Positions 1,952 through 26,034 of a stretch of 64,000 bases of DNA are shown piece by piece (the stretch's first letter is position 1; each line of letters opens with the position of its first letter). The DNA is taken from assembly GCF_021631985.1 (NCBI RefSeq), contig NZ_CP070225.1:4898001-4962000 (forward strand). The letters run 5' to 3'. The notes beneath the pieces were generated by a model. It made no database searches, had not been told where the DNA came from, and saw only the letters and a list, made by a program, of their open reading frames with translations. The translations under genes were made by a program, and so were the position numbers. This stretch comes from Sandaracinus amylolyticus. GTDB lineage: Bacteria; Myxococcota_A; Polyangia; Polyangiales; Sandaracinaceae.

Positions 1952-4900
1952 ATGACGAACATCCTGCCGGGCGAGGTCACGCCGACGCTCTTCGTCGGCC
2001 TCGGCGGCTCGGGGGGCCGCGCCATCGGACGCATCGCGCGGCACCTTCGCGCGCGGGCCGATTTCGGCGTGCGCTACGAGGGCCTCGTCCGCTTCCTCGC
2101 GATCGACACCAACGAGGCGGACCTCGCGCGGCTGCGCCAGGGCCCAGGCGCGATCCACAGCACGGTCGCGATCAGCGACTTCGACAAGGTCGAGTACTCG
2201 TCGCTGCGCCGCGGGGATCGTTTCGCCGACGCCGATCCGTACTTCACGCAGTGGGTGCACCCCTGGTACCGCTTCCGCGAGGAGAGCGGCGCAGGCGCGG
2301 GGCAGATCCGTGTGGAGAGCCGGCTCTCGTTCAACCGCGCGGTCGAGGTGGGCTCGCTCTCGGCGAGACTGAGCGAGATCCTCGATGCGCTGCGGCACCA
2401 CGCGCAGGGCATGCGCCGTCACGACGCGCCGGTGCAGGTGTTCGTCTACTTCTCGGTCGCGGGCGGCACCGGATCGGGCGCGTTCCTGCCCTTCGGCTAT
2501 CTCGTGCGCGACGCGCTCGGCGACAAGCGCTCGCGCGTGTTCGGCTTCGCGATCCTGCCCGAGGCGTTCGAGGTGGTCGCGGGGCGCAACCGCGACGGCG
2601 TCTACGCGAACGGCTACGCGGCGCTCAAGGAGCTCGAGCACCTGATGCGGCTCGACACCAACACGAGCGGCTCGCCCGACGCGATCGCGTTCCACTACGA
2701 CCCGCGCAACAAGAGCCGGAAGACCGTCGCGCGACGTCCCTACGATCTCGTGTACCTCGTCGATCGCCCCGCGAGCTTCAGCCTCGACGAGGTGGGCGAG
2801 GCGCTCGCGGACGCGAGCTACCTGCAGGTGTTCTCGCCGATCCTCGGGGATCAGCAGGCCGACTACGACAACTACACGAAGGAGTCGCGGGCGCTCTTCC
2901 CGGCGGAGCTCGGCAGCGACGGATACAGCGCGTTCTACGGCACGCTGGGCTCGGCGCTGGTGATCCTGCCGCGCAAGGACCTGCTCGAGTACTGCGCGCG
3001 ACGGTGGAGCGCGGCCGCGGTGCGGCGTTACCTGCTGCTCGACGATCCCGCGCTGGTCAGCGAGTCGCAGCGCGAGCGGTTCAAGCGGTTCGCGCTCGAT
3101 CCCGCGGAGCTCGACACGCTCTCGCCCGACGAGCGCGCGCGACGTGTCGATCAGAGCTTCGTGTCGCGCATCGATCTGCTTGCGGAGGAGGATCGCGAGG
3201 GCGGGATCTGGAAGCGCATCGTCGCGCTGAAGGAGACCGCGGGCGCGAAGATCGCGGCGACGCTCCACGGGATCGAGACCGAGCTGCGCGGAAAGACCAC
3301 GCAGGTCCGGGAGATCAGCGCGGATCGCATCCTCGACGGATCGTGGACGCCCGCGAACACGATCGGCGCGCTGGGGCGCGAGGTCGAGAAGGCGCGCGCC
3401 GACGTGCAGGCGCGACTGGGCACGGTGCTCGCGCAGATCGACGGCGGGAGCTTCTGGCCGGAGCTGCTCGCGAAGGCGGGCCCCGACGGAGCGCCCGAGC
3501 TCTCGCCCTACGAGCAGCGCTACGTGCTCACGATGCTGCGCGAGCCCACGGGCCTGCTCGGCAGCGCGGCGCTCGACGAGGTGACGCGACAGATCGCGGG
3601 GCTCACCAAGGAGTGCGAGCTCGGTCGCGAGGGTCGCTTCACGAGCGAGATGGACGCGCACGCGTCGACGCTGAAGCGCACGCACGGCGGGTTCGACGCG
3701 GTGGTGCTGCGCAAGGACAAGGACTTCGAGGCGGCGCGCGATCGCGCGGTCGCGACGTTCAACGAGCAGGTGGAGCGACAGCGCGCGCTCTTGCTCAAGA
3801 GCGCGCTGCACGAGCTGCGGGTCGCGCTGGGGCGCGCGGCGGACGCGCTGCGCGCGAGCTTCCGGAACATCGAGGCGTCGGCGTCGCGCTTGTCGGTCGA
3901 GCTCGACGAGAAGGCGCGCCGCTTCGAGCTCGACGGTGGGCACGCGGGCGCGGGCGAGGTGAACGACTTCGCGCTCGACGTGGAGGCGCTGCAGCACCCG
4001 AGCGGCAAGCAGCGCTTCTGGAGCTGGTACTACCTGGACCAGGTCGCACGTGGCTCCCTGGGCGCCGCAGGCCCCGAGACCGGAGACAGCAAGGAGATCG
4101 TCGCGGCCGTGCAGGACGCGATGCGTCCGCGCTTCGACGAGCGGGGACGTCCGGTGTCGCGCACCGCGCGCGAGATGGTGAGCGACATCGAGCGCAAGCT
4201 GGTCGAGGTCGCGGAGGGCGTGCTCGCGAAGGTGATCCTCGGCGATCCGCGGAGCGACGATCCCGCGGAGCGCGCCGGGCTCACGCTCGATCAGGCGATC
4301 GCGCTCGAGGCGAAGTACTACGAGCTGCACACGCAGAACGAGGTGCTGGCCGAGCGCGAGCGGAAGAAGACGACGGCCGAGGCCGCGCTGCGCGCGATGT
4401 CGCCGCTCTCGCCGGCGTCGCTGTGGGGCGAGGAGAACGTGCGGCAGTACGCGCTGCGCAAGCTGCGCGCGACGATCGGCAAGGCGCAGCCGCTCACGCG
4501 TCTCTCGCCCGAGGCGCGCAGCCTGATGAAGCACACCGACATGCTGCTCGTCGGCGTGCACACGTCGCTCGCGGGGAGCGCGCTCGGTCGCTTGCTCGCG
4601 GGCGCGACCGAGGGCCTGAGCGCGCAGACGATCGACGACTGGCCGGACGCCGAGCGCCTCGTGTTCTATCGCTCGATCCTCGGCGTGCCGCTCTACTGCT
4701 TCCCGCACGTGAACGAGGAGATGAAGGCCTGCTACCAGCGCTACCAGGCGCAGCGCGAGAAGGCGTGGCCGCTCCACATCGACGCGAACTGGGAGGCGCT
4801 GCCCGATCTCGATCCCGAGGAGCGGCGCGCGGCGATCGAGTCGCGTCGCAAGCAGCTGAAGGGCGCGCTCGGCGCGCTCGCGATCGCGGTGACGCGGGGT

Positions 4901-5209
4901 GCGGTGACGAGCGGTGAGAGCGGGCTCGAGCTCGTGATCGGCTCGTCGCGGCTGCCACTCGGTCGCGGGCCCATCGAGGCCGCGGGCGCGCTCGCGGCGC
5001 TCGAGCAGAGCAAGCCCTCGATCTTCCAGTCGGTCGTGCTGCCGCTGCGCAGCGCGTTCGAGAGTGGCACCGCGAAGGGCGAGGTCGCGGGCGCACAGAA
5101 GACGTGGAGCGAGCGCGCGATGCAGCTCGAGCTGCTGGCCGGTCTCGACTCGGCGCAGAAGCGCGAGTACGACGAGCTGCGCGAGGTCGCGGCGATCCTC
5201 GGCGGCTGA
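1952..5209 (+). CDS. Tubulin-like GTPase (Tubulin_2 type)
   Basis: A 1085-residue protein. It opens TLFVGLGGSGGRAIGRIARHL, the glycine-rich loop expected at the start of tubulin/FtsZ-like nucleotide folds. At residues about 169-176 it carries VAGGTGSG, the tubulin signature that binds the phosphates (GGGTGSG in FtsZ). The remaining 650 residues are charged and helical with coiled-coil-like stretches and no membrane helix. Length and architecture fit the Tubulin_2 group of large bacterial tubulin-like proteins, which have no settled function. The ATG at 1952 has GGAGG at 1934-1938; an in-frame start at 1832 would add Arg-rich sequence. It is the first gene of a three-gene set, with 16 bp to the next. 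Polymer formation is untested. Confidence 0.85.
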   Translation: MTNILPGEVTPTLFVGLGGSGGRAIGRIARHLRARADFGVRYEGLVRFLAIDTNEADLARLRQGPGAIHSTVAISDFDKVEYSSLRRGDRFADADPYFTQWVHPWYRFREESGAGAGQIRVESRLSFNRAVEVGSLSARLSEILDALRHHAQGMRRHDAPVQVFVYFSVAGGTGSGAFLPFGYLVRDALGDKRSRVFGFAILPEAFEVVAGRNRDGVYANGYAALKELEHLMRLDTNTSGSPDAIAFHYDPRNKSRKTVARRPYDLVYLVDRPASFSLDEVGEALADASYLQVFSPILGDQQADYDNYTKESRALFPAELGSDGYSAFYGTLGSALVILPRKDLLEYCARRWSAAAVRRYLLLDDPALVSESQRERFKRFALDPAELDTLSPDERARRVDQSFVSRIDLLAEEDREGGIWKRIVALKETAGAKIAATLHGIETELRGKTTQVREISADRILDGSWTPANTIGALGREVEKARADVQARLGTVLAQIDGGSFWPELLAKAGPDGAPELSPYEQRYVLTMLREPTGLLGSAALDEVTRQIAGLTKECELGREGRFTSEMDAHASTLKRTHGGFDAVVLRKDKDFEAARDRAVATFNEQVERQRALLLKSALHELRVALGRAADALRASFRNIEASASRLSVELDEKARRFELDGGHAGAGEVNDFALDVEALQHPSGKQRFWSWYYLDQVARGSLGAAGPETGDSKEIVAAVQDAMRPRFDERGRPVSRTAREMVSDIERKLVEVAEGVLAKVILGDPRSDDPAERAGLTLDQAIALEAKYYELHTQNEVLAERERKKTTAEAALRAMSPLSPASLWGEENVRQYALRKLRATIGKAQPLTRLSPEARSLMKHTDMLLVGVHTSLAGSALGRLLAGATEGLSAQTIDDWPDAERLVFYRSILGVPLYCFPHVNEEMKACYQRYQAQREKAWPLHIDANWEALPDLDPEERRAAIESRRKQLKGALGALAIAVTRGAVTSGESGLELVIGSSRLPLGRGPIEAAGALAALEQSKPSIFQSVVLPLRSAFESGTAKGEVAGAQKTWSERAMQLELLAGLDSAQKREYDELREVAAILGG

Positions 5210-5225
5210 GCTTGATCGCATCGCG

Positions 5226-7745
5226 ATGACCACCGCGGCGATCGTCTGCGGGCTCGGTGCGTTCGGCGCGAGCGTCGCGCGTCGGCTCGAGGAAGAGCTG
5301 TCGCGCGAGGGCGCGCCCTTCGCGTTCGTCGCGCTCGATCCGTGCCCCTCGCCGAGCGCGATCGCGTCGGCGGTGATCGAGCGGGCGCGCGTGCTGCTCG
5401 CGCACGAGCGCATGGTGCACGCGCGCGATGCCGCGGGGGAGGACGGGCTCACCGAGCTGCTCGTGATCCCGATCGCGCACCTCGGCGAGCGCGGACCACG
5501 CGGTGCGATCGAGGCCGCGCTCACGGCGATCGAGGAGCGCGTGATCGGCGAGCTCGGTCCGATCTTCGAGCCGTTCCGTACGGGGAGCGAGCGCAACGCG
5601 ATCGTCGCGCCGATGCTCGCGATGCCGCATCCCCACGGACACGCGGAGGGCGAGGCGATCATCGCGTCGGTGCGCGCGCTCGTGAGCGCGGTGCGCGCAC
5701 GTCCCGCGACGCGGCGCTGCACGCCGCAGGTCTGGCTCGTCGAGGACGTCGCGGAGTTCTCGATCCTCTCGGAGGGCGAGCTCGAGCAGAACGTACGCAA
5801 CTTCGTCACGCTGCTGCTGCGCGCGCGACCGGCGCTCGATCGCGTGCAGACGGTGCTGCACGGCACCGCGCCCGACGCACCGCTCGCGACGTTCGCGTGT
5901 GCCGTCGCGGAGCTCCCGCGCGAGCGCATCCGGCGCTGGGCGACGAGCCAGGTCGCGCTCGAGCTGCTCGATGCGGTGCTCGACGCGAAGCTCGAGGGCG
6001 CGACGTTGTCGGAGGTCGACGCGCTCGAGCAGGTGGAGCTCGACGCGCTCGATCCCACCGCCGACGCCGCGCACGTCGTGCGCGACGTGCTCGAGCGCTA
6101 CGTGCCGCCGATCGAGAACGACGCGCCGCCGCGCTGGCACGAGAGCGCAGAGGAGATCCGCGCGCGCTACGGGCCCGATCACGGAGATCCTTCGCTCGAC
6201 GATCCGCAGCCGCCGCCCCAGCAGCCGGTGGGTTTCGCGCTCGAGCGCATGCGGCAGATCGAGGACGCCTGGCGGCTCCTGCAGCGGCGGCGCTTCGACG
6301 ATCTCGTGGCGCGCGAGCGCGCGGACATGGAAGCGGCGCGCGAGTCGTTGCTCACGCGGGTGAAGGCGCGCGTGGATCGCGAGCTCTGGGGAACGCCGTC
6401 GCCCGACGCGTTCCGGCGCACGACCGAGCTCGTCGACAAGCTGCGCCGCGGCGTCGCGATGCGGCTCGAGGACGCGATCACCGAGCGCGACGCGATCGAG
6501 CCGACGCCTTCGCCGAGCTTCGACGATCTGCGCGCGAGGCATGCCGAGCTGCTCGATGCGGCGCGCCGCAGGCCCGATCTCGGGCGCATGGTGCTCTGGG
6601 GCCTGCTCGCGACGATGGCGACGATCGTGCTCGTGCCGTCGATCCTGGTGGAGCTCGCGGGCGCGATCGATGCCCAGCCGAGCGACTGGTACGAGCCGTG
6701 GCTGCGGGCGCGCGCGATCTGGACCGCGGGCACCTTCGGGCTGCTCGCGATCGGAGCGCACCTCGCGTGGCACGTGTGGAGCGCACACGCGGCGACGGTC
6801 GAGGCGCACCGCGAGATGTGGGCCGCGATCCGTCGCACCGTGATGGGCGAGCAGCGATCGGTCGCGACGTACTTCACGACGCGCTTGCGCTTGTCGCGCG
6901 CGACGGCACGGGTCCAGGCGCTGCTCGCGCTGCGCGCGGTGCTCGATCGCGACGCGGAGGCGCTGCTCCTCGCGGAGCGCGCGGCGCAGCGTGCGCGCGC
7001 GGAGCTGCTCGCAGAGCAGCGTGCGCTGGGCGTGGTGCGCGAGGGCGCGCGCGTCGATCTCTCGGAGCTGCTCGGTGGGCGCGGCGAGACGCTGGTCGAA
7101 GGGCTCGCGGGCGCGGCGGCAGCGCGCGCGCTGATGCGTCAGCTCCCCGCCGATGCGCGGCCGACGCGCGAGCGCGATCTGCTGCGCGCCCTCGCCGATC
7201 GCGAGGGCTGGTCGCGGCGTTGGCGCGACGAGGTGCCGTTCTCGTCGCTCGTGTCGCTGCGCGCGGGCGCGGCGCCGCACGCCGAGCCGGTCGCGGCGTG
7301 GGATCCGTTCGCGGAGAGCGAGGACGCGGAGGCCGCGAGCGCGCAGATCGCGTCGTTCTTGCGGAGGCAAGCGCGCTCGCTGAGGGTCGCGCTCGACTTC
7401 ACGGGCCGCGAGGTCGGCGGCGACGCGCACGTCGTGTACGAGGGCCTCGGCGTGGTCCCGCCCGCGGCCGAGCCCGAGGTCGCGCGAAGGCTGGAGAAGG
7501 AGAGCGCATCGGGCGCACCGATCCGCTGCGCGCGCGGCATCGAAGAAGATCGCGCGTACTGGCTCGTGGTGGTGACCGACATCGAGCTCGAGCGCGTCGC
7601 ATCGCTGCGCACCACGACCGCGACACGTCCCACCGCCGCCGAAGCCCCGCGCTTCGAGATCGAAGACGAAGCCGCCGCCCGCGTCGCGACGCTCGCCCGC
7701 AAGCCGCCCTCGCCCCCTCACTCCGACCCGGAGGAGGGCGCGTGA
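5226..7745 (+). CDS. Large membrane protein of the tubulin-like operon
   Basis: An 839-residue protein I cannot assign to a named family. Its start, AIVCGLGAFGASVARRLEEEL, resembles the glycine loop of the preceding tubulin-like protein, but there is no GGTGSG signature, so it may be a degenerate partner domain. A long charged helical region follows, with a Pro-rich linker near residue 330 (PQPPPQQP). Two membrane helices lie at about residues 453-480 (MVLWGLLATMATIVLVPSIL) and 495-520, then a coiled-coil-like cytoplasmic tail. The ATG at 5226 gives 16 bp from the previous stop; no strong Shine-Dalgarno is seen, so translational coupling is likely. Its stop overlaps the next start (GTGA). It is a plausible membrane anchor for the tubulin-like protein. 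Confidence 0.75.
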   Translation: MTTAAIVCGLGAFGASVARRLEEELSREGAPFAFVALDPCPSPSAIASAVIERARVLLAHERMVHARDAAGEDGLTELLVIPIAHLGERGPRGAIEAALTAIEERVIGELGPIFEPFRTGSERNAIVAPMLAMPHPHGHAEGEAIIASVRALVSAVRARPATRRCTPQVWLVEDVAEFSILSEGELEQNVRNFVTLLLRARPALDRVQTVLHGTAPDAPLATFACAVAELPRERIRRWATSQVALELLDAVLDAKLEGATLSEVDALEQVELDALDPTADAAHVVRDVLERYVPPIENDAPPRWHESAEEIRARYGPDHGDPSLDDPQPPPQQPVGFALERMRQIEDAWRLLQRRRFDDLVARERADMEAARESLLTRVKARVDRELWGTPSPDAFRRTTELVDKLRRGVAMRLEDAITERDAIEPTPSPSFDDLRARHAELLDAARRRPDLGRMVLWGLLATMATIVLVPSILVELAGAIDAQPSDWYEPWLRARAIWTAGTFGLLAIGAHLAWHVWSAHAATVEAHREMWAAIRRTVMGEQRSVATYFTTRLRLSRATARVQALLALRAVLDRDAEALLLAERAAQRARAELLAEQRALGVVREGARVDLSELLGGRGETLVEGLAGAAAARALMRQLPADARPTRERDLLRALADREGWSRRWRDEVPFSSLVSLRAGAAPHAEPVAAWDPFAESEDAEAASAQIASFLRRQARSLRVALDFTGREVGGDAHVVYEGLGVVPPAAEPEVARRLEKESASGAPIRCARGIEEDRAYWLVVVTDIELERVASLRTTTATRPTAAEAPRFEIEDEAAARVATLARKPPSPPHSDPEEGA

Positions 7746-10700
7746 ACGCGTTCGAGCGTCTCGCGTGCGAGCTCGCGCGTCTGTCCGCGCTGATCCCTGG
7801 GCTCGGGATCACCGTCGTCGCGTTCGTGCCCTCGCTGCTCGTGATCGCGACGTCGTACCTGCTCGGTCGCGCGGCGCGCGCGCTGCCCGGCGGTCGTGGT
7901 CGAGCGAGCCACACGCCGACCTGGGTCGCGGCCTCGATCGTCGCGGTCGCGCTCTACGGCCTCGCGCGCATCGCCGATCCCTTCCTGCGTGATCGACTGC
8001 ATCGCCCCGACGACGTCGATCCCGCGCTGTGGGAGCGCGTCTCGTACTTCGAGTGGCGTCTCCTCGGTGCGCCGTGGGGTCGCCCGCTCGTGCCGCTCGA
8101 TGCGCACCCCGACATCGCGATCGCGCTGCACGCGATCGTGTGGCTGCCGATCATCGTGCTCGTCGCGGCGCTGCTCGAGCGCTTCGTCGTGTCCGCGACG
8201 CCGGGCGGGCTCACGTGGAGCACGAAGCAGGAGGACCTGCCCTTCTTCCATCGCTGGGTCGGCGCGAGCACCGCGCGCCGCGCCGACGATCGCTTCCGCC
8301 GCTGGGCGCGCCCGCTGTGGATCGCGATCTTCGTCGCGCACGCGATCGCGGGTTGGCTCTTCTACGTGCGCTTCGTCGCGAGCGAGCCCCCCGCGATGAT
8401 GATGTGCCGCGAAGGCGAGCAGGGCGCGCCGGTGCGGCCCGCGGCGTACGCGGACGACGACGATCCGATCGAGCAGGCGCGCGACGATGCGCGGCCCGCG
8501 CCCGGCGCGTGGGTGCTCGCGCTCTACCTGCTCACCGTGCTCGGCGTGCACCTCGCGACGCAGGCGCGTCCGCCGGCCGAGCAGGACGAGAAGAAGGCCG
8601 AGGAGGACACGAAGGCACCTCCGCCCGAGCCCGCGATCGAGCGCCTCCGCGCCGCGCTCGCCGACGCACCGGGCGCCCCGACCATCGCACCTTCGACGCG
8701 CACCCCCGCGCGCACCGCCGAGACCGCCGCGCTCCCCGATCGCACCGCTGCGCTCGCGGCCGAAGCGTTCCGCCGTCTCACCGGCGCCGAGACGCTCTAC
8801 ACACACCAGCGCGACGTGCTCGAGCACCTCTCCTCGATGTGGCGCACCACGTCTCCCACCGCGCGCGGCGCGGCGCCCGAGCTGCGCGAGGAAGCGATGG
8901 GCGCGCCGTTCCGCGGCGCCGAGGGCGCGCTCGAGCACCCGCTCGTGCTTCTGCCCGAAGGCAGCGGTCGCACCGCGCTCTGCGCGCTCGCGGCGCTGCA
9001 GGTCTTCCTCGATCGCGGCGCGACCACGCTGGTCGTCACCCGCGACGCACCCTCGGCGCGCGCGTTCGCCGAGCGCGTGCGCGATGCGGTGCAGCGCACG
9101 GCCGCGCGATGGAACGCCGCGGTCGCCGTCGCAGGTGAAGATCTCGCCGCCGCGCTGCTCGCCGAGCGCACCCCCGCGATCGTCGTCGCGCATCTCGAGG
9201 CGCTCGAGTCGGACGTGCTCTCGGATCCGCGCACCGAGCCGATCCTCGAGCGCCTCGGGCTCTGGATCGTGCTCGACGTCGAGGGCTTCACCGGCGTGCG
9301 CGAGATGCATCTGCACATGCTCGCGCGCCGTACCTGGGCGCTCCTCGATGCGGTGCACGACGCGCCCTACCCCGCGCTCCTGCTCGCCACCGCCGGCCCG
9401 AGCGCGAGCGGCATCGCGGGCTGGGCGCGCCACCTGCTCGCCGCGCCGCTGCGGGTCTTCGAGCGCGACGGAGCGCCGCGCCCCGCGCACGCGACGATCA
9501 CCCGCCGCGATCTGCGTCGTGACGACGGGCGCGAGGTCACGATCGCCGAGCTCGCCGAGGCGTGCGCGCGCGCCGGGCTGCGCTGGCACCTGCGCCTCGC
9601 GGGCGACGCGTGGCGCGGCATCGCGCGAAGCACGATCGATCTCGCGCCCGTCGCGGGGCACGTCGACGATCCGCTCGACGCCGAGGTCGTGATGATCGAA
9701 GGGCGCTGGCCCGACGTGCGGCGGGAGGCCGAGCGCCTCGCACACGCCGGGCAGCGCGCCGCGCCCGAGGGCGAGACCCTCGTGATCCTCGCACCGCCAC
9801 GGGGCGACGAGCTCGCGCTGCACGACGAGGCGGAGGACGCGCCCTTCCGCGCGCTCACGCTCGCGCTCCCTCGCGCGGTGCCGCTCTCCGAGCCCGAGGT
9901 GGTGCGCCAGCGTCACTTCGATCGCGCGCTCGGTCGCGAGCAGGACGTCGACGCGCTGCGCACGCGCTTCGGCGCGCCCTTCGTCGACGAGACGCTGCGA
10001 CGCCTCGAGGCGAACGGACGCGTCGCGCGCCGCGCCGCGCTCGAGTTCGACGCGCGCATCGACGACGCGCGTGCCCGCGCGAAGGTGCGCAGCACGAGCG
10101 AGGCCGCGATCGGCGAGCCGATCTGCGATGCGTGCGTGGGCGAGTCGACGTCGCGGGTGCGGCTCGTCGACGAAGGCACGCGCGACGTGCTGCGCGAGCT
10201 CGATCTCGCGACCGCGAGCGCGCTGCATCCGCCGGGCAGCCTCGTGCTCCACGCGCGGGGTCGCTACCTCGTGCGCGAGGGCGCGAGCGAGCCCGGGCTC
10301 CTCCTCGCGGCGCACGGGCAGCCTCCGGGCCGCACCACACCCGACCGTCGCGTGACCATCGAGCCCCGGGGGAAGCTCGAGCTCTCGGAGCGCTCGCTCG
10401 GCGGCGCGCCGATCCCGATCGCGCTCGCGCGCGCCGAGGTCACCGAGACGTTCCATGGCATCCGCCGCTACGCGCCGGGCCCGCGCCTCGTCGAGCGACG
10501 CACCTACGCGCATCCGCTCGCGAGCGTGTACTCGACCGAGGCGTGCCTCGTCGTGATCGAGCCCGCGCTCCCGCGCGCGGCGGAGATCGCGCTCGCCACC
10601 GCGGTCCGCGCGATGCTGCCGTGCCTGCTGCGCGCGTCGGAGGATCTGATCGACGTCGAGATCGTGCGCATCGAAGAGCGCGTCTGCCTCGCGCTCTTCG

Positions 10701-11554
10701 ATCGCACGCCGGGCGCGAGCGGGCTCGCGCGGCACCTGCACCACGAGGGCGTCGGCGATCTGCTGCGGCTCGCGCGGCTCGCGCTCGAGCGCCTGGTCGG
10801 TGCGGAGACCGCGCCGCTGCGCGCGCTCTACGACACGCGGGAGGGCGGCGATCGCGAGCCCTGGGACGCGCGCGCCGCGCTGGTGTGGCTCGATCGCGTG
10901 CTCGACGCGGCGCCCGAGGACGACGCGCCTGCGCGCGAGCGTGCCGCGCGCGTCGAGCACGTGCCGGGAGAAGGCGCGCCCGGCGATCTCGGTCGCGTGT
11001 GGATCGCGCTCGAGGGTCGCACCGAAGATCTGGTGTGGACCCGGCACGCGTGGATCAGCGAGGTCGCGATCGGCCAGGCGCCCGCGGGCCCGGTGCACCT
11101 CGACGTCGCGTTCGAGCGCGGCGCGATCGCGCGTGCCCTCGAGGAGGCCGCGAGCGCGAGCGACGATCTCGGCGCGTGGGGCGATCTCGTGGCGCGCGCC
11201 GAGGCCGATCTCGCGCCGCTCGCATCGCGCCTGATCGATCTCGCGGGCCCCGCGTACCCCGAGCTCGTGCTCGGGCTCGTCGCCGCGATCCCCACCCGCG
11301 CACGACCGCTCGCGCCCGCCGAGCGCGCGCCCCTCGTCGCGCTGGTGCGACGACGCGCCGACGCGCCCGCGAAAGCGCTGCTCGCGCTCACCCTGCTGCG
11401 CGCGCACGGCCCCGCGCAGATCCTCGAGGGGCCGCGTGGTCCGTGGGTGCGCGCGACGATCGGAGAGCGCGATCGTGTCGTCGATCTCACCCGCGATCCG
11501 CCGCGCGTGGTGTCGTCTTCCGAGCACGCTGCAGCGCGTGTGCACCTCGGCTGA
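7742..11554 (+). CDS. Membrane-anchored, degenerate Hrq1/MrfA-like (DUF1998) helicase
   Basis: A 1270-residue protein starting at a GTG that overlaps the previous stop by 4 bp. About five hydrophobic segments lie in the first 275 residues (near 15-40, 60-77, 122-146, 193-213, 257-273), then a charged linker. The cytoplasmic part follows the order of Hrq1/MrfA DEAD-like helicases: YTHQRDVLEHL (Q-like), EGSGRT at 406-411 in place of GSGK(S/T), and LDVEGFTGV with D512 in place of DE(V/L)HxYxG. Later come LRELDLATASALHPPGSLVLHARGRYLV and LALFDRTPGASGLAR, which match conserved strings of the DUF1998/MZB region. The usual arginine-finger motif VI is not evident and the DUF1998 cysteines are mostly missing, so ATPase activity is doubtful. 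Confidence 0.7.
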   Translation: MNAFERLACELARLSALIPGLGITVVAFVPSLLVIATSYLLGRAARALPGGRGRASHTPTWVAASIVAVALYGLARIADPFLRDRLHRPDDVDPALWERVSYFEWRLLGAPWGRPLVPLDAHPDIAIALHAIVWLPIIVLVAALLERFVVSATPGGLTWSTKQEDLPFFHRWVGASTARRADDRFRRWARPLWIAIFVAHAIAGWLFYVRFVASEPPAMMMCREGEQGAPVRPAAYADDDDPIEQARDDARPAPGAWVLALYLLTVLGVHLATQARPPAEQDEKKAEEDTKAPPPEPAIERLRAALADAPGAPTIAPSTRTPARTAETAALPDRTAALAAEAFRRLTGAETLYTHQRDVLEHLSSMWRTTSPTARGAAPELREEAMGAPFRGAEGALEHPLVLLPEGSGRTALCALAALQVFLDRGATTLVVTRDAPSARAFAERVRDAVQRTAARWNAAVAVAGEDLAAALLAERTPAIVVAHLEALESDVLSDPRTEPILERLGLWIVLDVEGFTGVREMHLHMLARRTWALLDAVHDAPYPALLLATAGPSASGIAGWARHLLAAPLRVFERDGAPRPAHATITRRDLRRDDGREVTIAELAEACARAGLRWHLRLAGDAWRGIARSTIDLAPVAGHVDDPLDAEVVMIEGRWPDVRREAERLAHAGQRAAPEGETLVILAPPRGDELALHDEAEDAPFRALTLALPRAVPLSEPEVVRQRHFDRALGREQDVDALRTRFGAPFVDETLRRLEANGRVARRAALEFDARIDDARARAKVRSTSEAAIGEPICDACVGESTSRVRLVDEGTRDVLRELDLATASALHPPGSLVLHARGRYLVREGASEPGLLLAAHGQPPGRTTPDRRVTIEPRGKLELSERSLGGAPIPIALARAEVTETFHGIRRYAPGPRLVERRTYAHPLASVYSTEACLVVIEPALPRAAEIALATAVRAMLPCLLRASEDLIDVEIVRIEERVCLALFDRTPGASGLARHLHHEGVGDLLRLARLALERLVGAETAPLRALYDTREGGDREPWDARAALVWLDRVLDAAPEDDAPARERAARVEHVPGEGAPGDLGRVWIALEGRTEDLVWTRHAWISEVAIGQAPAGPVHLDVAFERGAIARALEEAASASDDLGAWGDLVARAEADLAPLASRLIDLAGPAYPELVLGLVAAIPTRARPLAPAERAPLVALVRRRADAPAKALLALTLLRAHGPAQILEGPRGPWVRATIGERDRVVDLTRDPPRVVSSSEHAAARVHLG

Positions 11555-18668: not shown

Positions 18669-18905
18669 AGTGCACCGGCCGATTGCCCGCCGTGGTAGGG
18701 CTGCCGGTCCAGCGGTTTCGGGAGAGGGTCGCCGCGTAGGGCTTGGGGCATCGTCCCCGTGACTGAGATTGGCGCCCTCGACCGAGTTTCTTTGCTCGAA
18801 CGGTATCCAGAGGCGTGGCTCGTCCACCGTCCTCGCATGGACAAGCAAGGGCACGAAGCTCGGCTCCGAGGCTCCCGGGGACGCGAACACGAGCTCGAGA
18901 GGCAC
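18669..18905 (+). ncRNA. Candidate bridge RNA region of the IS110 element
   Basis: In the IS110 subgroup the non-coding 5' end encodes a structured bridge RNA that pairs with donor and target DNA. Here the 237 bases between the left boundary and the transposase start hold no convincing gene and contain short hairpins such as GGGG-CATCGT-CCCC (near 18746-18760). The guide loops cannot be defined without the pre-insertion site or related copies. The call rests on position and family knowledge, not on a seen covariance model. Confidence 0.4.
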
Positions 18906-20075
18906 ATGAGATTCGTCGGGATCGACATCGGTTCGGAGAAGCACGTCGTCGCGATCGTGGACGAGGCGGGCAAGGCACTGCGGAAGCCGACGCCGTTCTC
19001 CGAAGACGCGTCGGGCTACGAACGACTGCGCTCGATGCTCGGTGAGCCCGCCGACGCGTTCATCGCGATGGAGGCGACGGGGCACTATTGGCAGAACCTC
19101 TTCGCGTTCCTGCATGCAGCAGGGTTTCAGGTCGCGCTGTTGAACCCGACGCGCACGTCGCGGTTTGCAGCCGAGGATCTGCGGCGCGCGAAGACCGACG
19201 CGCTCGACGCTCTGGGCATCGCACGCTTCGCGCAGCAGAAGAGACCTGCGGCGACCCCGATGCCCGATGAGGCCACGCTCGAGCTGCGTGAGCTGATCCG
19301 GCTTCGCGACCGCCTCGTGCAGGACCTCGGCGACCGCACGCGGCAACTGCACCGCGCGCTCGACCTCTGTTTTCCGGAGTTCACCGAGCACGTGCGCGAC
19401 GTGGCTTCGGCCAAAGCGACCACGCTGCTCATCGCGAGTCCGACCGCCGAGGCCTTCCGTGCTGCCGACCCGAACGCGCTGGCGGAGCTGAAGTACGACG
19501 GCCGCCACGTCATCGGTGTCGAGCTCGCGCAAGCGCTCTGCGCGGCTGCGAAGACCTCCGTGGGCCGCCACCAGGGCACGGCGTACGAGCTTCAGATCCG
19601 CTACGCGTGCGAGGACATCGCGACGCTCCGAGCGCGGATCAAGAAGCTCGACGACGACATCGGCCAGAGCCTCGAGCGCCACGAGGTCGGCAAGCTGCTG
19701 ACCACCATCGACGGCGTCGGCGACAACACCGCGGCGCGGATGATCGCCTCGATCGACTTCGACGCGTTCAAGAGCGCGGCCGCGCTCGCGGCGTACGTCG
19801 GCGTCGCCCCGATCGTGAGCCACTCAGGCAAGCGCCAGCCACTGCGAGGCCCCGCCTGCACGATGGGCGACGCCGACCTGCGCGCGAAGCTCTGGATGCC
19901 GACGCTGCGAGCGGTGACCCACAACCCGTGGCTCAAGGCGTTCTACGGGCGCCTGGTCGCGGCCGGAAAGCCGAAGAAGCTCGCGATCATCGCTGCGATG
20001 CGCAAGCTCCTCGGCGCGATGATCAGCGTCGCGCGCACCCGCACGCCCTTCGTGCCGAGGCTCGCGGCGGCCTGA
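18906..20075 (+). CDS. IS110-family transposase (DEDD recombinase)
   Basis: A 389-residue recombinase. The N-terminal RuvC-like DEDD domain shows D7 (GIDIGSEKH), E56 (AMEATGHY), D98 and D101 (KTDALDA). A coiled-coil linker follows, then the Transposase_20 domain (IDGVGDNTAARMIASI, YVGVAPIVSHSGKR) with the serine in SHSG expected to be the nucleophile. All four acidic residues and the Ser are intact, so it is probably active. The ATG at 18906 begins the conserved MRFVGIDIG; upstream in-frame sequence belongs to the non-coding end. Codon use is slightly less GC-biased than its neighbours, consistent with recent arrival. Confidence 0.93.
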   Translation: MRFVGIDIGSEKHVVAIVDEAGKALRKPTPFSEDASGYERLRSMLGEPADAFIAMEATGHYWQNLFAFLHAAGFQVALLNPTRTSRFAAEDLRRAKTDALDALGIARFAQQKRPAATPMPDEATLELRELIRLRDRLVQDLGDRTRQLHRALDLCFPEFTEHVRDVASAKATTLLIASPTAEAFRAADPNALAELKYDGRHVIGVELAQALCAAAKTSVGRHQGTAYELQIRYACEDIATLRARIKKLDDDIGQSLERHEVGKLLTTIDGVGDNTAARMIASIDFDAFKSAAALAAYVGVAPIVSHSGKRQPLRGPACTMGDADLRAKLWMPTLRAVTHNPWLKAFYGRLVAAGKPKKLAIIAAMRKLLGAMISVARTRTPFVPRLAAA

Positions 20076-20582: not shown

Positions 20583-22634
20583 TCACTCGGTCGCGATCGC
20601 GCTCACCGGACCGAACGCGCCGACGATCTCCAACGTGCGCGCGCCCAGCGCGATCGTGGGCGAGCGCGTCCCGAGCACCTGCTCGCCGACGACGCCGTAC
20701 GTCGCGAGCCTCGGCGTGGTGCGGAACGAGGGGAGCGGGAGGCTCGGCCCGCCCTGGTTCATCGCGAACGTCGCGACGTAGTACGCCGCGTACGCCGCGT
20801 ACGCGTACACCCCGGCGCGCGCGCTCGCGGAGAGCGGGACGTCGCTCGACACCGCGAGCTCGGCGAAGCGCACGCCGCGCCCGCCGTCCATCGTGCCCGC
20901 GAAGAGCGGATCGCCCGCCGCGCTCGCCTGCACGCCGAGCTCGACCGTCGCCGCGATGCGCACCCGCACGTCGCCCTCGGGCCACGGCCCGTTCGCCGCG
21001 TCGTTCGTCACCACGAGCTCGAGCCCGCCGAGCATCGCCGACACGTCGCTGCTCACCGACACGACCGGGGGCAGCGCCATCTCGAAGCGGACCATGTCGG
21101 GCGCGACCACCATCGCGGGCGACACGCTCATGTCGGGCGCGACGATCATGTCGGGCGCCACGACCATGTCGGGCGCCACCACCATGTCGGGCGCGACGAC
21201 TCCTTCGAGCCCGCCGGCGCGCCACAGCTCGTGCGCGACGTGGTTGAGCACGCGCTCCGACACGACGTTGCCGACCGGCTCCGACGTGCGCGACGCGTCG
21301 ACCGCGACGCTGGCGCGCACGACTCCGCTCGTCGCGCGCGTCGCGGCGGGCGCTTCGTATCGCGTCGTCAGCCCGAACACGAGCCCGTCGGCGCTGGGCG
21401 TGACGGTCGCGAACGACGCGTCGAACGTGAACGTGGTGGCCGCGCCCTCGATGCCTGCGAGCTCGAAGCTCGCGCCGAGCGTGCGCACGTCGATCGTGCG
21501 CAGCAGCTCCTCCATGATCCCGTTGAGCTCGACGGCGATGAACGCCTCGATGCTCTCGGCGATCCCCTCGCGCCCTCCCCCGATGCGCGCCGCGATCTCC
21601 GCCTCGACGAGCATCTCCTGCGCTGCAGGAGGCGGTGCGGGACCGCCCGGCGCGTCGACGTAGTCCGCGCGGATCGCGCCGACCGTCGCGACGGCCTCGC
21701 CGCGCGTGCGCGCGACGAGCACGCCGCCCTCGACCACGAGATCGACCTCGAGCGCGATGTCGACGTCGTCGAGGTACACCAGCAGCGCGCCCTCGAGCGG
21801 GCCGAGCACCGAGGTCCCCACGTAGGTGCCGTCGATCGTCACGAGGGGCACGTGACCGACGAAGTGCAGCCCTCCGGCATCGGGCGTCAGCTCCGAGGTC
21901 GTCGCGTCGGAGATCGTGAGCGCGCCGTACGTGTAGTCGCCCTCGACGAGGCACACGCCGCCCGTGCTCGCGTGACATCCGTCGGAGAGCACCTCCGACT
22001 CGCCGCCCGGACCGAACCGCGCATCGAGGCGCTGCTCGATCAGCCCGCGCGTCGCGCCGGGACCGACCAGCGCGGCGCGGAACACGTCGTCGAGGCTCGC
22101 GTACTCGCCGTACGCGTCGTCCCCGTCGTCCACACCGCTCGGCGTGACGCGCATCGTCACCGCGCCTTCGAGCGGCTCGCCGACGTCCTGCCACGACTCG
22201 GACACGAGCACGGTGCACACCGCGCGCGAGACCCCTCCGCCGGTGCCGGTCGCGACGATCTCGAGCGTGTTCATCCCGAAGCGCGCGGGCAGCGCGACCT
22301 CGATCACGCCGACCTCGGGCGTCACCGCGACGCCGTTCGCGGTGACGCTCGCGACCTCGCCCGCGACCGCCGCGATCCAGTCGATCGGCGCGCCCGGAGC
22401 CGCGGTGATCATCGAGCCGTGGAGCGGTCGCACGCAGCGCACGTCGGGCCCGTCGGGCACCGGCGTCGAGGCATCCGAGCCGGCGTCGTCCATCGCCGCG
22501 TCCTCGATCGCCGCATCGGCGCCCGCGTCATACCGGCTCGCGTCCACCGGTGGAACGCTCGGCGGGCGCTCCTCGCACGCGGCGACGAGCAGGAGCGCGA
22601 GGACGAGCCCTCGCGGGTCGACGACACGGCGCAT
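20583..22634 (-). CDS. Large lipoprotein with VVAPDM tandem repeats
   Basis: A 683-residue predicted lipoprotein (signal ending LLLVAACEE). An Asp/Ala-rich linker (DASRYDAGADAAIEDAAMDDAGSDAS) typical of myxobacterial surface proteins follows. Residues about 70-150 look like an Ig-like beta domain; two larger beta-rich regions follow, separated by six copies of a six-residue unit VVAPDM (18-bp DNA repeat at 21091-21198). No enzymatic motif was seen, and the family was not recognised. The start at 22634 has GGAGG about six bases upstream and a TAGACT box further up. It is probably cell-surface or periplasmic. Confidence 0.7.
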   Translation of the reverse strand: MRRVVDPRGLVLALLLVAACEERPPSVPPVDASRYDAGADAAIEDAAMDDAGSDASTPVPDGPDVRCVRPLHGSMITAAPGAPIDWIAAVAGEVASVTANGVAVTPEVGVIEVALPARFGMNTLEIVATGTGGGVSRAVCTVLVSESWQDVGEPLEGAVTMRVTPSGVDDGDDAYGEYASLDDVFRAALVGPGATRGLIEQRLDARFGPGGESEVLSDGCHASTGGVCLVEGDYTYGALTISDATTSELTPDAGGLHFVGHVPLVTIDGTYVGTSVLGPLEGALLVYLDDVDIALEVDLVVEGGVLVARTRGEAVATVGAIRADYVDAPGGPAPPPAAQEMLVEAEIAARIGGGREGIAESIEAFIAVELNGIMEELLRTIDVRTLGASFELAGIEGAATTFTFDASFATVTPSADGLVFGLTTRYEAPAATRATSGVVRASVAVDASRTSEPVGNVVSERVLNHVAHELWRAGGLEGVVAPDMVVAPDMVVAPDMIVAPDMSVSPAMVVAPDMVRFEMALPPVVSVSSDVSAMLGGLELVVTNDAANGPWPEGDVRVRIAATVELGVQASAAGDPLFAGTMDGGRGVRFAELAVSSDVPLSASARAGVYAYAAYAAYYVATFAMNQGGPSLPLPSFRTTPRLATYGVVGEQVLGTRSPTIALGARTLEIVGAFGPVSAIATE
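21091..21198 (-). repeat. Six 18-bp tandem repeats inside a lipoprotein gene
   Basis: Six in-frame units resembling ACCATGTCGGGCGCGACC start at 21091, 21109, 21127, 21145, 21163 and 21181. They encode V-V-A-P-D-M variants on the minus strand; the unit at 21109 is the most diverged (SVSPAM region). Because the unit is 18 bp, copy-number change keeps the frame and would change the spacing between two beta-rich domains. Confidence 0.85.
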
Positions 22635-22682
22635 CGGATCCTCCGCGCGCAGCAGTCTATCGGCAATCTTCGCGCGTCGTCA

Positions 22683-23603
22683 TCACCGGCGGGACGTGCG
22701 CGCCCACTGCAACGTCCACGTGGGCGCTCCGATCCGCGAGGCCGCGATCTGCGCGATCGATCGCGTGCCGTCCGCGAGCAGGTCGGGCGCATACGCGATC
22801 TGCTCGCGCGCCAGCGCCATCGCAGCTTCGCGATCCGCAGGCGGGCGCGCGACGCGCAGCTCGATCACGTCGGCACCGAGCGCGACGACCTCCGCGCCGT
22901 AGCGCTCGCGCCATCGCGTGAGCATCGCGACGTGCACCGTGGGCTCGGGACAGCCCGCCCAATTGCCGAACGCGAGCCACGCCGGCACCTCCGCGGGATC
23001 CCGCGTCGGCACCAGGGCCACCGCGACCTCGGGCACCGGCAGATCGAGCGCGTCGCGCACCACCCGCGATCGCACCGGCACCGGCTCCGGGATCTCCTCG
23101 GGCCAGTCCCCCTCGCGGGGGCGCGACGTCGCGAGCCGCGTCGCGATCCACGCATCGAGATCGAACGTGCGTGCCCGCCGCACGATCGCGTCCGGCGCGT
23201 CCCCCGTCGAGCGCGTCGCCTCGTCGTGGGCGCGCACCGCCCACCCGTCGCCCAGCACCACGGGCCAGCGCCCGCTCTCCGCCACGCCCTCGCTCAGGCG
23301 CTCCCAGGCCCCGAGCGCATCGCGGCCCGCGAGCACGAGCCCGAGCACCCCGGTGTCGCCGCGCTCCACCACGCGCACCAGCGGCAGCCCGCCGAGCATC
23401 GCCTGCTCGAGCGCGCGTCGCTCGGTCGCGGCGGTCGCGTCGTCGGCCGCGATCGGCTCGCCGATCGGCGGCGCGGGCGGGCGGGCGATCACCGCTGCCA
23501 CCTCCTCGTCCGGTCGGTCGCGTCGGGCCACCATCGCCCACACGCCCAGCCCTCCGAAGAGCGCCGCGACGGCGACACGCAGGAACACACGCTCCTTCAC
23601 CAC
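22683..23603 (-). CDS. DUF4253-domain protein with N-terminal membrane anchor
   Basis: A 306-residue protein with one N-terminal hydrophobic helix (RVFLRVAVAALFGGLGVWAMVA) and a C-terminal domain matching DUF4253: FGNWAGCPEP, MLTRWRERYGAEVVALGADVIELRVARPPADREAAMALAREQIAYAPDLL. The function of that family is unknown. Two adjacent GTG codons could start it (23603 or 23600). The first is preferred because TATCCT at 23616-23611 ends seven bases before it, the leaderless spacing seen elsewhere. Divergent from the L,D-transpeptidase gene at 23827. Confidence 0.75.
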   Translation of the reverse strand: MVKERVFLRVAVAALFGGLGVWAMVARRDRPDEEVAAVIARPPAPPIGEPIAADDATAATERRALEQAMLGGLPLVRVVERGDTGVLGLVLAGRDALGAWERLSEGVAESGRWPVVLGDGWAVRAHDEATRSTGDAPDAIVRRARTFDLDAWIATRLATSRPREGDWPEEIPEPVPVRSRVVRDALDLPVPEVAVALVPTRDPAEVPAWLAFGNWAGCPEPTVHVAMLTRWRERYGAEVVALGADVIELRVARPPADREAAMALAREQIAYAPDLLADGTRSIAQIAASRIGAPTWTLQWARTSRR

Positions 23604-23610
23604 GCGCGCG

Positions 23611-23616
23611 AGGATA
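23611..23616 (-). promoter_or_regulatory. -10-like box TATCCT, predicted leaderless start
   Basis: Read leftward, TATCCT ends seven bases before the GTG at 23603; no Shine-Dalgarno sequence lies between. It decides between two adjacent GTG starts. Confidence 0.45.
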
Positions 23617-23674
23617 GCAACGACGCGGTCCCCGGCCCGCGACGGCGTGTCCCGAGGGACGCGCCGTACCCTGT

Positions 23675-23690
23675 GTGATCCGCGGATCAC
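23675..23690. promoter_or_regulatory. Perfect 16-bp palindrome GTGATCCGCGGATCAC, candidate operator
   Basis: A fully symmetric 16-mer in the 223-bp gap between the divergent DUF4253 and L,D-transpeptidase genes. The size and symmetry suit a dimeric helix-turn-helix repressor. No regulator gene lies next to it, and the palindrome could also be chance in GC-rich DNA. Confidence 0.4.
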
Positions 23691-23826
23691 CCGAGAAACA
23701 TGGGCTTCTCCAGCCTCCCCACGCTGGCACGTCGGGCGCAGTCCCACCCTTCGTGCGCACGCAGAACGCCCACGGATCCGAGAGAAAGTTGCGCCAAGGC
23801 AGCAGTGTACGAACACTCGAAGAGTG

Positions 23827-26034
23827 ATGTCGGAAAGGGTCCGGTCGCGACGGCCGTTGCTCGCGCTGGGATGCCTCCTGGGGCTCGTCGCGTGCGGCGA
23901 CGTCGAGGTCGTCAACGCGCCGGCCGAGGCGCCTCCCCGATCCGAAGGCCAGGGCGCTGCACCGGGCGAGGGCGAGTCGGGCGGGGGTGAGCCCGAGGTC
24001 GTCGACGCGCGTCCGCCGCCGATGCACCAGCCCATCCCACTGTGGGAGAACGGCCGACCCGGCGAGATGGTCGACGCGGCGACCGCGCGCGAGCACGGCT
24101 ACGTCGTCGTCGACCTCGGCGAGGAGTGGACGCCCTACCTCTTCACGACGCGCGGCAACGCCGCGGAGCCCGAGACGCCGAACGCGTACCGCGCGACCTA
24201 CCTCGCGCTCGCGCGCGGCGAATTCCCCAACGATCACCACGGCGAGCGCGCCCGCAGCGACAAGTACCTCGAGCTCTACGGCATCATGCCGACGCTCGGC
24301 CTGCTGCGTCAGCGCATGCGTCACACGAGCTCGCTCGAGTGCATGGCGTCGCTCGACCTCGAGCCGCTGCGCACGTTCGAGGGCTTCATCGCGTACGAGA
24401 ACCGCGACTCGGGCCGCAACTTCGCGCGCACGGTCCGCGTCCTCGAGAACCAGGTCGGCGAGATCGTGCGCAACCAGCGCGTCGAGTCGCCGGACGCGAT
24501 CGACGCGGCGCGCCTCTCCGATCGCGATGCGCGCCGCTACGCGGAGTGGCAGCGCACGATGCCGCGCTTCCGCGCGATCCGCGCGGCGCAGCAGCGCCTC
24601 GAGTGCGAGGGCTACTTCGAGGGCAAGGGCGAGTACGTGTCGGGCGGGCTCGACTGGCCGACGCACGAGGCGCTCGCCGAGTTCGAGCGACGCCATCGCA
24701 TCTACGGCTGGGGCTTCCTCGGGCGCGAGACGCTCGACATGCTGCGCCGCTCGCCGCTCGAGGGCGATCAGGAAGCCGTCGTGCGCGTGCTCACCGAGCG
24801 CGCGATGCACGCGGCCGGCGTCATCGAGGACGGCTCGATCGGCGAGCGACAGTTCCGCGGCGAGGACGGCGCGCAGCACGAGGTGCCGAACCTCGAGGGG
24901 CAGATCCGCTCCAACGTGATCGAGGCGTTCGGCCTGCAGAGCGCGGAGTCGACGCTCGCGTTCCTCGAGCAGCTCGGGGAGCTCGCGCCGGAGGCGGAGC
25001 ACCTCGTCGCGATCCGCGCGCCGCAGCTGCCCGAGTACTACGACGGCAACATGGACCTCTCGGTCGAGATCGACCGAGGCGACGTCTGGTACGAGTTCCC
25101 CTACGACGACGCGGGCCAGGAGCGCGCGCAGCCCGCCGAGCGCCGCCCGCGCCTGACGATCTTCACGACGTACCGCGGCCAGCGGATCCCGCTCTCGCGC
25201 ATCGGCACCACGATCGGCGGCTGGCGCAGCGAGCAGATCGAGGGCCGCACCTGGTGGAAGTACAAGAACTCGCCGCCGGGCCCGGTGATCTGGCACCAGA
25301 TCGTCGCCGCGCCGGTGTGGCTGCCGCCCGAGTCGACGCCGCACCGCGAGCTGCTCTCGCGCGTGCCGCGCGGCCGCGGCGCCGAGGCCTACCGCGTGAA
25401 CTACCACGAGGTCGGGCCGAGCTACGCGTCGGCGTACGGGCTCGTCGCCGCCTATCACATCCGCTATCGCGAGGACGAAGGCGGCGCGCTGCGCTTCGGG
25501 CCCGACGAAGGGATCCGCACGCACGGCTCGGTCGACTACATGTCGATCATGCGGCGGCACTCGCACGGCTGTCACCGGCTGCACAACCACATGGCGGTGC
25601 GCCTCATGAGCTTCGTGCTCGCGCACCGGCCGCACGTGCGCGTGGGCCAGCAGGCGCTCGGCTTCCGCCGCGAGCTCGAGCACGAGGGGCACACCTATCA
25701 GATGGCGCTCGATCGCGGCGGCTACGTGTTCCAGCTCGCGCAGCCGATCCACGTCGAGGTGCTCGAGGGCCGCGTGCGCGGCGAGCGCGAGACGCCGATC
25801 GAGTTCCCGCTGCCGCGCTGGGACTCGACCTACGGCGCGTACATGCTGCCCGACGGCGGCGCGGTCGCGATCTCGCGCAGCGGCGGGATGCGCGCGGTGC
25901 CGGTGCCGGTGCCCGACGGCGGCGTGCCGATGATCGTCACGCCGGCGTTCGACGGCGGCGTGCGCCCGACGATGCCCGTCGTGCCGGTCCTGCCGAGCGC
26001 GCCGGTCACGCCGACCGCGATCGCACCTCGCTGA
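23827..26034 (+). CDS. L,D-transpeptidase-family lipoprotein
   Basis: A 735-residue protein. The lipobox LLGLVAC (C23) predicts lipid anchoring. Residues about 275-310 (GLDWPTHEALAEFERRHRIYGWGFLGRETLDML) look like a peptidoglycan-binding repeat. The YkuD-type catalytic motif is HGSVDYMSIMRRHSHGCHRLHN, with nucleophile C582. Expected activity: cross-linking or attaching protein to peptidoglycan in the periplasm. It is much longer than simple L,D-transpeptidases, with a Pro/Val-rich tail (PVVPVLPSAPVTPTAIAPR) that may extend through the wall. The ATG at 23827 begins the signal peptide. Confidence 0.82.
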   Translation: MSERVRSRRPLLALGCLLGLVACGDVEVVNAPAEAPPRSEGQGAAPGEGESGGGEPEVVDARPPPMHQPIPLWENGRPGEMVDAATAREHGYVVVDLGEEWTPYLFTTRGNAAEPETPNAYRATYLALARGEFPNDHHGERARSDKYLELYGIMPTLGLLRQRMRHTSSLECMASLDLEPLRTFEGFIAYENRDSGRNFARTVRVLENQVGEIVRNQRVESPDAIDAARLSDRDARRYAEWQRTMPRFRAIRAAQQRLECEGYFEGKGEYVSGGLDWPTHEALAEFERRHRIYGWGFLGRETLDMLRRSPLEGDQEAVVRVLTERAMHAAGVIEDGSIGERQFRGEDGAQHEVPNLEGQIRSNVIEAFGLQSAESTLAFLEQLGELAPEAEHLVAIRAPQLPEYYDGNMDLSVEIDRGDVWYEFPYDDAGQERAQPAERRPRLTIFTTYRGQRIPLSRIGTTIGGWRSEQIEGRTWWKYKNSPPGPVIWHQIVAAPVWLPPESTPHRELLSRVPRGRGAEAYRVNYHEVGPSYASAYGLVAAYHIRYREDEGGALRFGPDEGIRTHGSVDYMSIMRRHSHGCHRLHNHMAVRLMSFVLAHRPHVRVGQQALGFRRELEHEGHTYQMALDRGGYVFQLAQPIHVEVLEGRVRGERETPIEFPLPRWDSTYGAYMLPDGGAVAISRSGGMRAVPVPVPDGGVPMIVTPAFDGGVRPTMPVVPVLPSAPVTPTAIAPR

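Follow-up and report, generated by a model that had tools for sequence, protein, structure and literature searches.

FtsZl1 genes were described by Makarova and Koonin in 2010 together with genes for vWA proteins and other partners, and membrane remodelling was predicted as their role (PMC2875224). A sequence of the myxobacterium Plesiocystis pacifica is included in their alignment. No experimental follow-up of this prediction was found in the papers searched. The YprA helicases represent a second relevant group, being central to the defence systems DISARM, Dpd, Druantia, ARMADA, BRIGADE and TALON (PMC12458937). Finally, the PriA pseudohelicase of Deinococcus radiodurans is a retained helicase relative for which helicase activity was reported to be absent (PMC4504706); it differs from the present case by its family and its role in replication restart.

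The window, i.e. the whole stretch of 64,000 nucleotides analysed here, stems from the 10.96 Mb genome of Sandaracinus amylolyticus and carries on its forward strand an operon for a Tubulin_2 GTPase, a tubulin-fold membrane protein and a helicase-like protein. As in the FtsZl1/vWA neighbourhoods, there is an FtsZl1-type GTPase with GGTGSG, a vWA protein nearby and membrane proteins within the operon. In contrast, a helicase is nowhere mentioned in the main text of PMC2875224. The locus resembles the YprA defence systems in that its helicase belongs to their family and carries additional domains, and the Dpd member has lost its four-cysteine cluster, too. However, nucleases or modification genes lie alongside the defence helicases, and the main text of PMC12458937 mentions neither a tubulin nor a transmembrane member. 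An association of the pseudohelicase with FtsZl1 is absent from the main text of PMC12458937, PMC2875224 and PMC12839542 (on YprA, FtsZl1 and BREX, respectively), and no paper joining FtsZl1 operons with YprA helicases was found in the open-licence literature. This analysis identifies two new parts of an FtsZl1-type operon, namely the pseudohelicase and a second protein with the tubulin fold.

Fold and degenerate motifs of the helicase-like protein

The pseudohelicase gene (7742..11554, + strand; assigned by model, profile and orthologues) encodes a membrane-anchored, MrfA/YprA-derived protein of 1270 aa. Its reading frame starts with GTG at 7742 and overlaps the upstream stop codon as GTGA. 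This overlap, which is preceded by the strong Shine-Dalgarno sequence GGAGGAGG at 7730-7737 (together 7730..7745, +), couples the gene to the upstream one. Scanning for promoters and terminators produced no signal above chance level.

An AlphaFold2 model of residues 318-1270 (pLDDT 85, pTM 0.78) has MrfA as its best match both in Foldseek (6znp, E 3.1e-27; the next helicase other than MrfA is Hel308 with 3.7e-9) and in VIA (Z 27.6 over 615 residues at 6.0 Å rmsd; next family 21.9). Comparison of a profile of 19 rows with MrfA/YprA yielded an E of 1e-25. With the single sequence, Pfam matches were weak (DEAD, E 0.011; MZB, E 0.046), phmmer found no match among PDB sequences and NCBIfam gave none; in the plasmid collection no relative was found. 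The order of two RecA-like domains followed by an OB-CON-DUF1998 canopy is present, with MrfA aligned over model residues 1-737, i.e. residues about 318-1054 of the protein, as in 6znp, 6znq and 6zns. In the MrfA/YprA family an N-terminal strand ahead of RecA1 (NTR) is inserted in RecA2; the model contains a strand at 319-321 and is aligned to MrfA from residue 22. The RecA1-like domain (residues about 346-575; 8777..9466, +), found by model, Foldseek, profile and VIA, precedes a reduced RecA2-like domain without motif V (residues about 576-720; 9467..9901, +) and a canopy-like region (10142..10903, +) that extends as far as the MrfA match does and in which the Zn cysteines are lost. The latter includes the DUF1998-type string LALFDRTPGASGLAR (residues 983-997; 10688-10732, +), which shares the FDxxPGxxG pattern with MrfA. 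A C-terminal extension follows beyond the MrfA match (10949..11551, +). By its predicted fold the protein decisively belongs to the MrfA/YprA (DUF1998) family. The initial annotation had proposed a retained SF2 fold with persisting DUF1998-type strings and had advised a structure prediction against MrfA; this prediction agrees with the proposal, since the model resembles MrfA and is not unrelated to SF2 helicases.

MrfA has no counterpart to the five membrane helices predicted from hydrophobicity and charge at residues 12-273 (7775..8560, +), where the hydrophobic stretches cover residues about 12-41, 60-78, 127-145, 191-209 and 255-273. The several helices that had been noted before amount to about five, all of them N-terminal. 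The charges of the loops fit an N-out/C-in topology, which would place the helicase-like part in the cytoplasm. N-terminal hydrophobic segments are also found in relatives that belong to the same gene triad and in none of the intact MrfA relatives.

For the motif alignment L056 and L103 served as intact references. L103 (G000:C1:1417000-1422500) is a separate MrfA-like helicase of the same genome with intact GKS, DELH, QRFGRAGR and Zn cysteines. Where both references have SGKT or SGKS in Walker A, the pseudohelicase has SGRT within the degenerate EGSGRT (residues 406-411; 8957..8974, +), with Lys replaced by Arg410. Such a Lys-to-Arg exchange normally abolishes nucleotide binding or hydrolysis. 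Motif II, expected as DELHxYxG, reads LDVEGFTGV (residues 511-519; 9272..9298, +), so that LDVE (L511-E514) stands for DELH. In the ungapped alignment to both references, Asp512 lies opposite the Glu of DELH and Leu511 opposite its Asp; the orthologues mostly have DD-[VAL]-D here. At the position of motif VI, ALHDEAED (9815..9838, +) is found in place of ALHQRGGRAGR, and in the continuing sequence ALHDEAEDAP acidic residues replace the Arg fingers. Neither motif VI (QxxGRxGR) nor motif V (TNALELGID) was found in the pseudohelicase, whereas both are present in L056 and L103. Because Walker A and motif II are altered and motifs V and VI are gone, we strongly infer from the sequence that ATP hydrolysis is lost. 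The loss of catalytic residues claimed in the initial annotation, including Arg410 and the missing motif VI, is supported by these alignments. For motif II the replacement itself was described correctly, but an acidic residue, Asp512, does align with the catalytic Glu.

Motifs Ia and Ib contact the nucleic-acid strand in SF2 helicases. Both (PTKAL and TNPD) are replaced throughout the pseudohelicase family, and the four Zn cysteines of DUF1998, kept in many distant relatives, are absent from the window's clade. The earlier suggestion that DNA or RNA binding was kept is therefore unsupported, since the DNA-contact motifs are lost as well.

Operon partners and genomic neighbourhood

The first gene of the operon (1952..5209, +; about 1085 aa) encodes the FtsZl1-type Tubulin_2 GTPase (Pfam E 5e-54) with an intact GTP-binding T4 loop of the GGGTG(S/T)G type, AGGTGSG (2459..2479, +). 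It is followed by a gene for an 839 aa membrane protein (5226..7745, +), which has the tubulin/FtsZ fold without the GGGTGSG (T4) signature and at least one predicted membrane segment (6579..6668, +). The structure predicted for it is similar to those of CetZ, tubulin and FtsZ (VIA Z 17.0 for CetZ over 275 residues), and its profile matches that of Tubulin_2 with an E of 2e-7. By itself, Foldseek found nothing significant for this model (best E 0.01); the tubulin fold is assigned from the VIA alignment and the profile comparison. According to the latter, the lost T4 loop corresponds to residues about 82-92, and no GGxTGxG-like motif was found anywhere in the 24 rows of this pseudo-tubulin.

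The order Tubulin_2, tubulin-fold gene, pseudohelicase gene occurs in 27 genomes. This count comprises the window, 12 loci with hits to all three profiles, four from clustering, seven of another group and three more. The named relatives found among the genome contigs are myxobacterial (Polyangia, Sandaracinaceae, Enhygromyxa). The observations on motifs and membrane helices in the initial annotation hold, but the conserved tubulin-like operon had been missed. In contrast to the MrfA/YprA helicases, the pseudohelicase is tied to this operon instead of MrfB or defence genes.

The vWA gene lies 3.0 kb upstream of the Tubulin_2 gene, just beyond the window. Its product contains a DxSxS motif and, close to the C-terminus, what appears to be a single membrane helix, and relatives were present in all six genomes tested (that of the window and five others). 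A P-loop GTPase, a protein kinase or an OmpA-like protein is a further partner in FtsZl1-type systems; at one locus (L012) a kinase-domain gene was seen nearby. The window also contains an IS110-family transposase gene (18759-20075), which lies some 7 kb beyond the operon on its downstream side. Two long reading frames of 683 and 1038 aa, with gene-like codon composition and no Pfam match, are present at 20583-26034. On a plasmid of Azospirillum ramasamyi (NZ_CP029832.1) a Tubulin_2 gene is followed by three long hypothetical genes, which gave no match to the pseudo-tubulin or pseudohelicase profiles. In Meiothermus taiwanensis (NZ_CP021131.1) and Thermus oshimai (NC_019387.1), genes for vWA, Tubulin_2 and a hypothetical protein of ~680 aa lie directly before brxL, and a gene for a 3'-5' exonuclease lies further on in these plasmids. 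These two loci point to a possible connection between FtsZl1-type genes and BREX-like defence.

Conservation and the graded family

Within the window's clade, Arg occupies the Walker A Lys position in each of the 12 members, which are 39-93% identical to the window protein. The orthologue comparison suggested in the initial annotation therefore recovers the same substitution throughout this clade. Relative to an orthologue of the same genus, dN/dS is 0.168 overall, 0.133 in the RecA1-like and 0.114 in the RecA2-like region, as expected under purifying selection, and the long reading frame is intact in the orthologues. When the motif columns are excluded from the tree calculation, a minimum of two changes between Lys and Arg is required.

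Beyond this clade the motifs are graded, and the relatives span the range from an intact P-loop to its total loss. Relatives from a different group of the phylum (L096-L102, L104) keep GKT or GKS, with motif II mostly of the DD type and once of the DE type (DELH). The group of L050-L055 and L057 keeps the Zn cysteines and has Lys or Arg in Walker A. In L126-L129 the P-loop is wholly lost; the Zn cysteines and the family match are retained, and the genes are still in the operon. The profile did not detect the middle gene of the triad in L128. Motif VI is missing across the aligned family. One regular-expression match to it occurs in the reading frame of L052, whose aligned motif VI region lacks the motif. 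Orthologues with intact motifs at shifted positions had been named as a finding that would speak against a lost activity. This was partly borne out: relatives in the other group have GKT/GKS at the same position and one of them has DELH, but motif VI is missing from these as well. Since some relatives keep GKT/GKS together with DD or DE, the binding of a nucleotide may still be relevant to some family members.

Possible roles of the pseudohelicase

The simultaneous loss of several motifs could indicate an ordinary decaying helicase pseudogene or an artefact of the reading frame. We consider this negligible, because the long frame is intact in orthologues, dN/dS is 0.17, the replacements are invariant and the operon is conserved. 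Arg in 12 of 12 clade members together with this dN/dS argues for a maintained pseudoenzyme instead of decay. Such a protein might still work as a switch that binds ATP or another NTP without hydrolysis, its binding state controlling a complex. The P-loop shape GSGRT and Asp512 are kept in the window's clade and GKT/GKS in relatives, but the usual effect of the Lys-to-Arg exchange, the group without any P-loop and the lack of Arg fingers at the corresponding alignment position throughout the family make this unlikely.

A somewhat more doubtful proposal is that the inactive helicase binds nucleic acid, either DNA or RNA, and thereby fixes it to the membrane, e.g. for segregation or uptake. It gains from the retained canopy region and from the DNA-bound MrfA structures being the nearest folds, and it suffers from the family-wide replacement of motifs Ia and Ib, the absent motif V and the Zn cluster lost in the window's clade. 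Function in anti-phage defence, as for the YprA relatives in DISARM, Dpd, Druantia or ARMADA, is less probable still. The central place of YprA helicases in such systems (PMC12458937) and the vWA-Tubulin_2 pair adjoining brxL on the Thermus and Meiothermus plasmids would fit; on the other hand, PADLOC gave no match for the three operon proteins, the operon includes no recognised nuclease, and its conserved gene order recurs across many genera.

With a probability of roughly two in three, we favour a membrane-anchored pseudoenzyme derived from MrfA/YprA that acts as a scaffold or conformational adaptor of an FtsZl1-type GTPase membrane complex. In many genomes of the phylum the dead helicase adjoins a tubulin-like GTPase and a degenerate tubulin-fold protein, so that it probably contributes structurally to an as yet uncharacterised membrane machine. 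An SF2 helicase of the MrfA/YprA type presumably acquired the five-helix anchor, kept the RecA1-RecA2-canopy fold and gave up both ATP hydrolysis and the canonical contacts to DNA. On the cytoplasmic side it would serve as the scaffold or adaptor in a physical complex built around the GTPase of the same operon, with the membrane-anchored pseudo-tubulin and the vWA protein, which may reach the periplasm. The GTPase would provide energy and polymerisation, the two degenerate membrane proteins would organise it at the membrane, and membrane remodelling may be the process served. Several observations count against this reading: in G169, G170 and G202 the gene for the pseudohelicase is on another contig than that for Tubulin_2, in G005 and G007 several kb separate the pseudohelicase gene from its partners, and several fragmented or distant Tubulin_2 genomes have an intact-type MrfA match alone, or none.

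The broader picture of a Myxococcota membrane machine, in which a live tubulin-like GTPase works with a pseudo-tubulin and a pseudohelicase, both membrane-anchored and linked to a periplasm-reaching vWA protein, and in which a helicase fold has become a cytoskeletal or membrane scaffold, is an evenly balanced proposition. The operon offers a testable case, since it is compact and relatives occur in isolated strains (Enhygromyxa). The variation of the P-loop from intact to absent within the same operon may show which residues the function needs. If the proposed machine exists, the FtsZl1/vWA clusters would gain two components that had gone unrecognised and whose folds are known, and the helicase fold would be shown to have been reused as a membrane scaffold.
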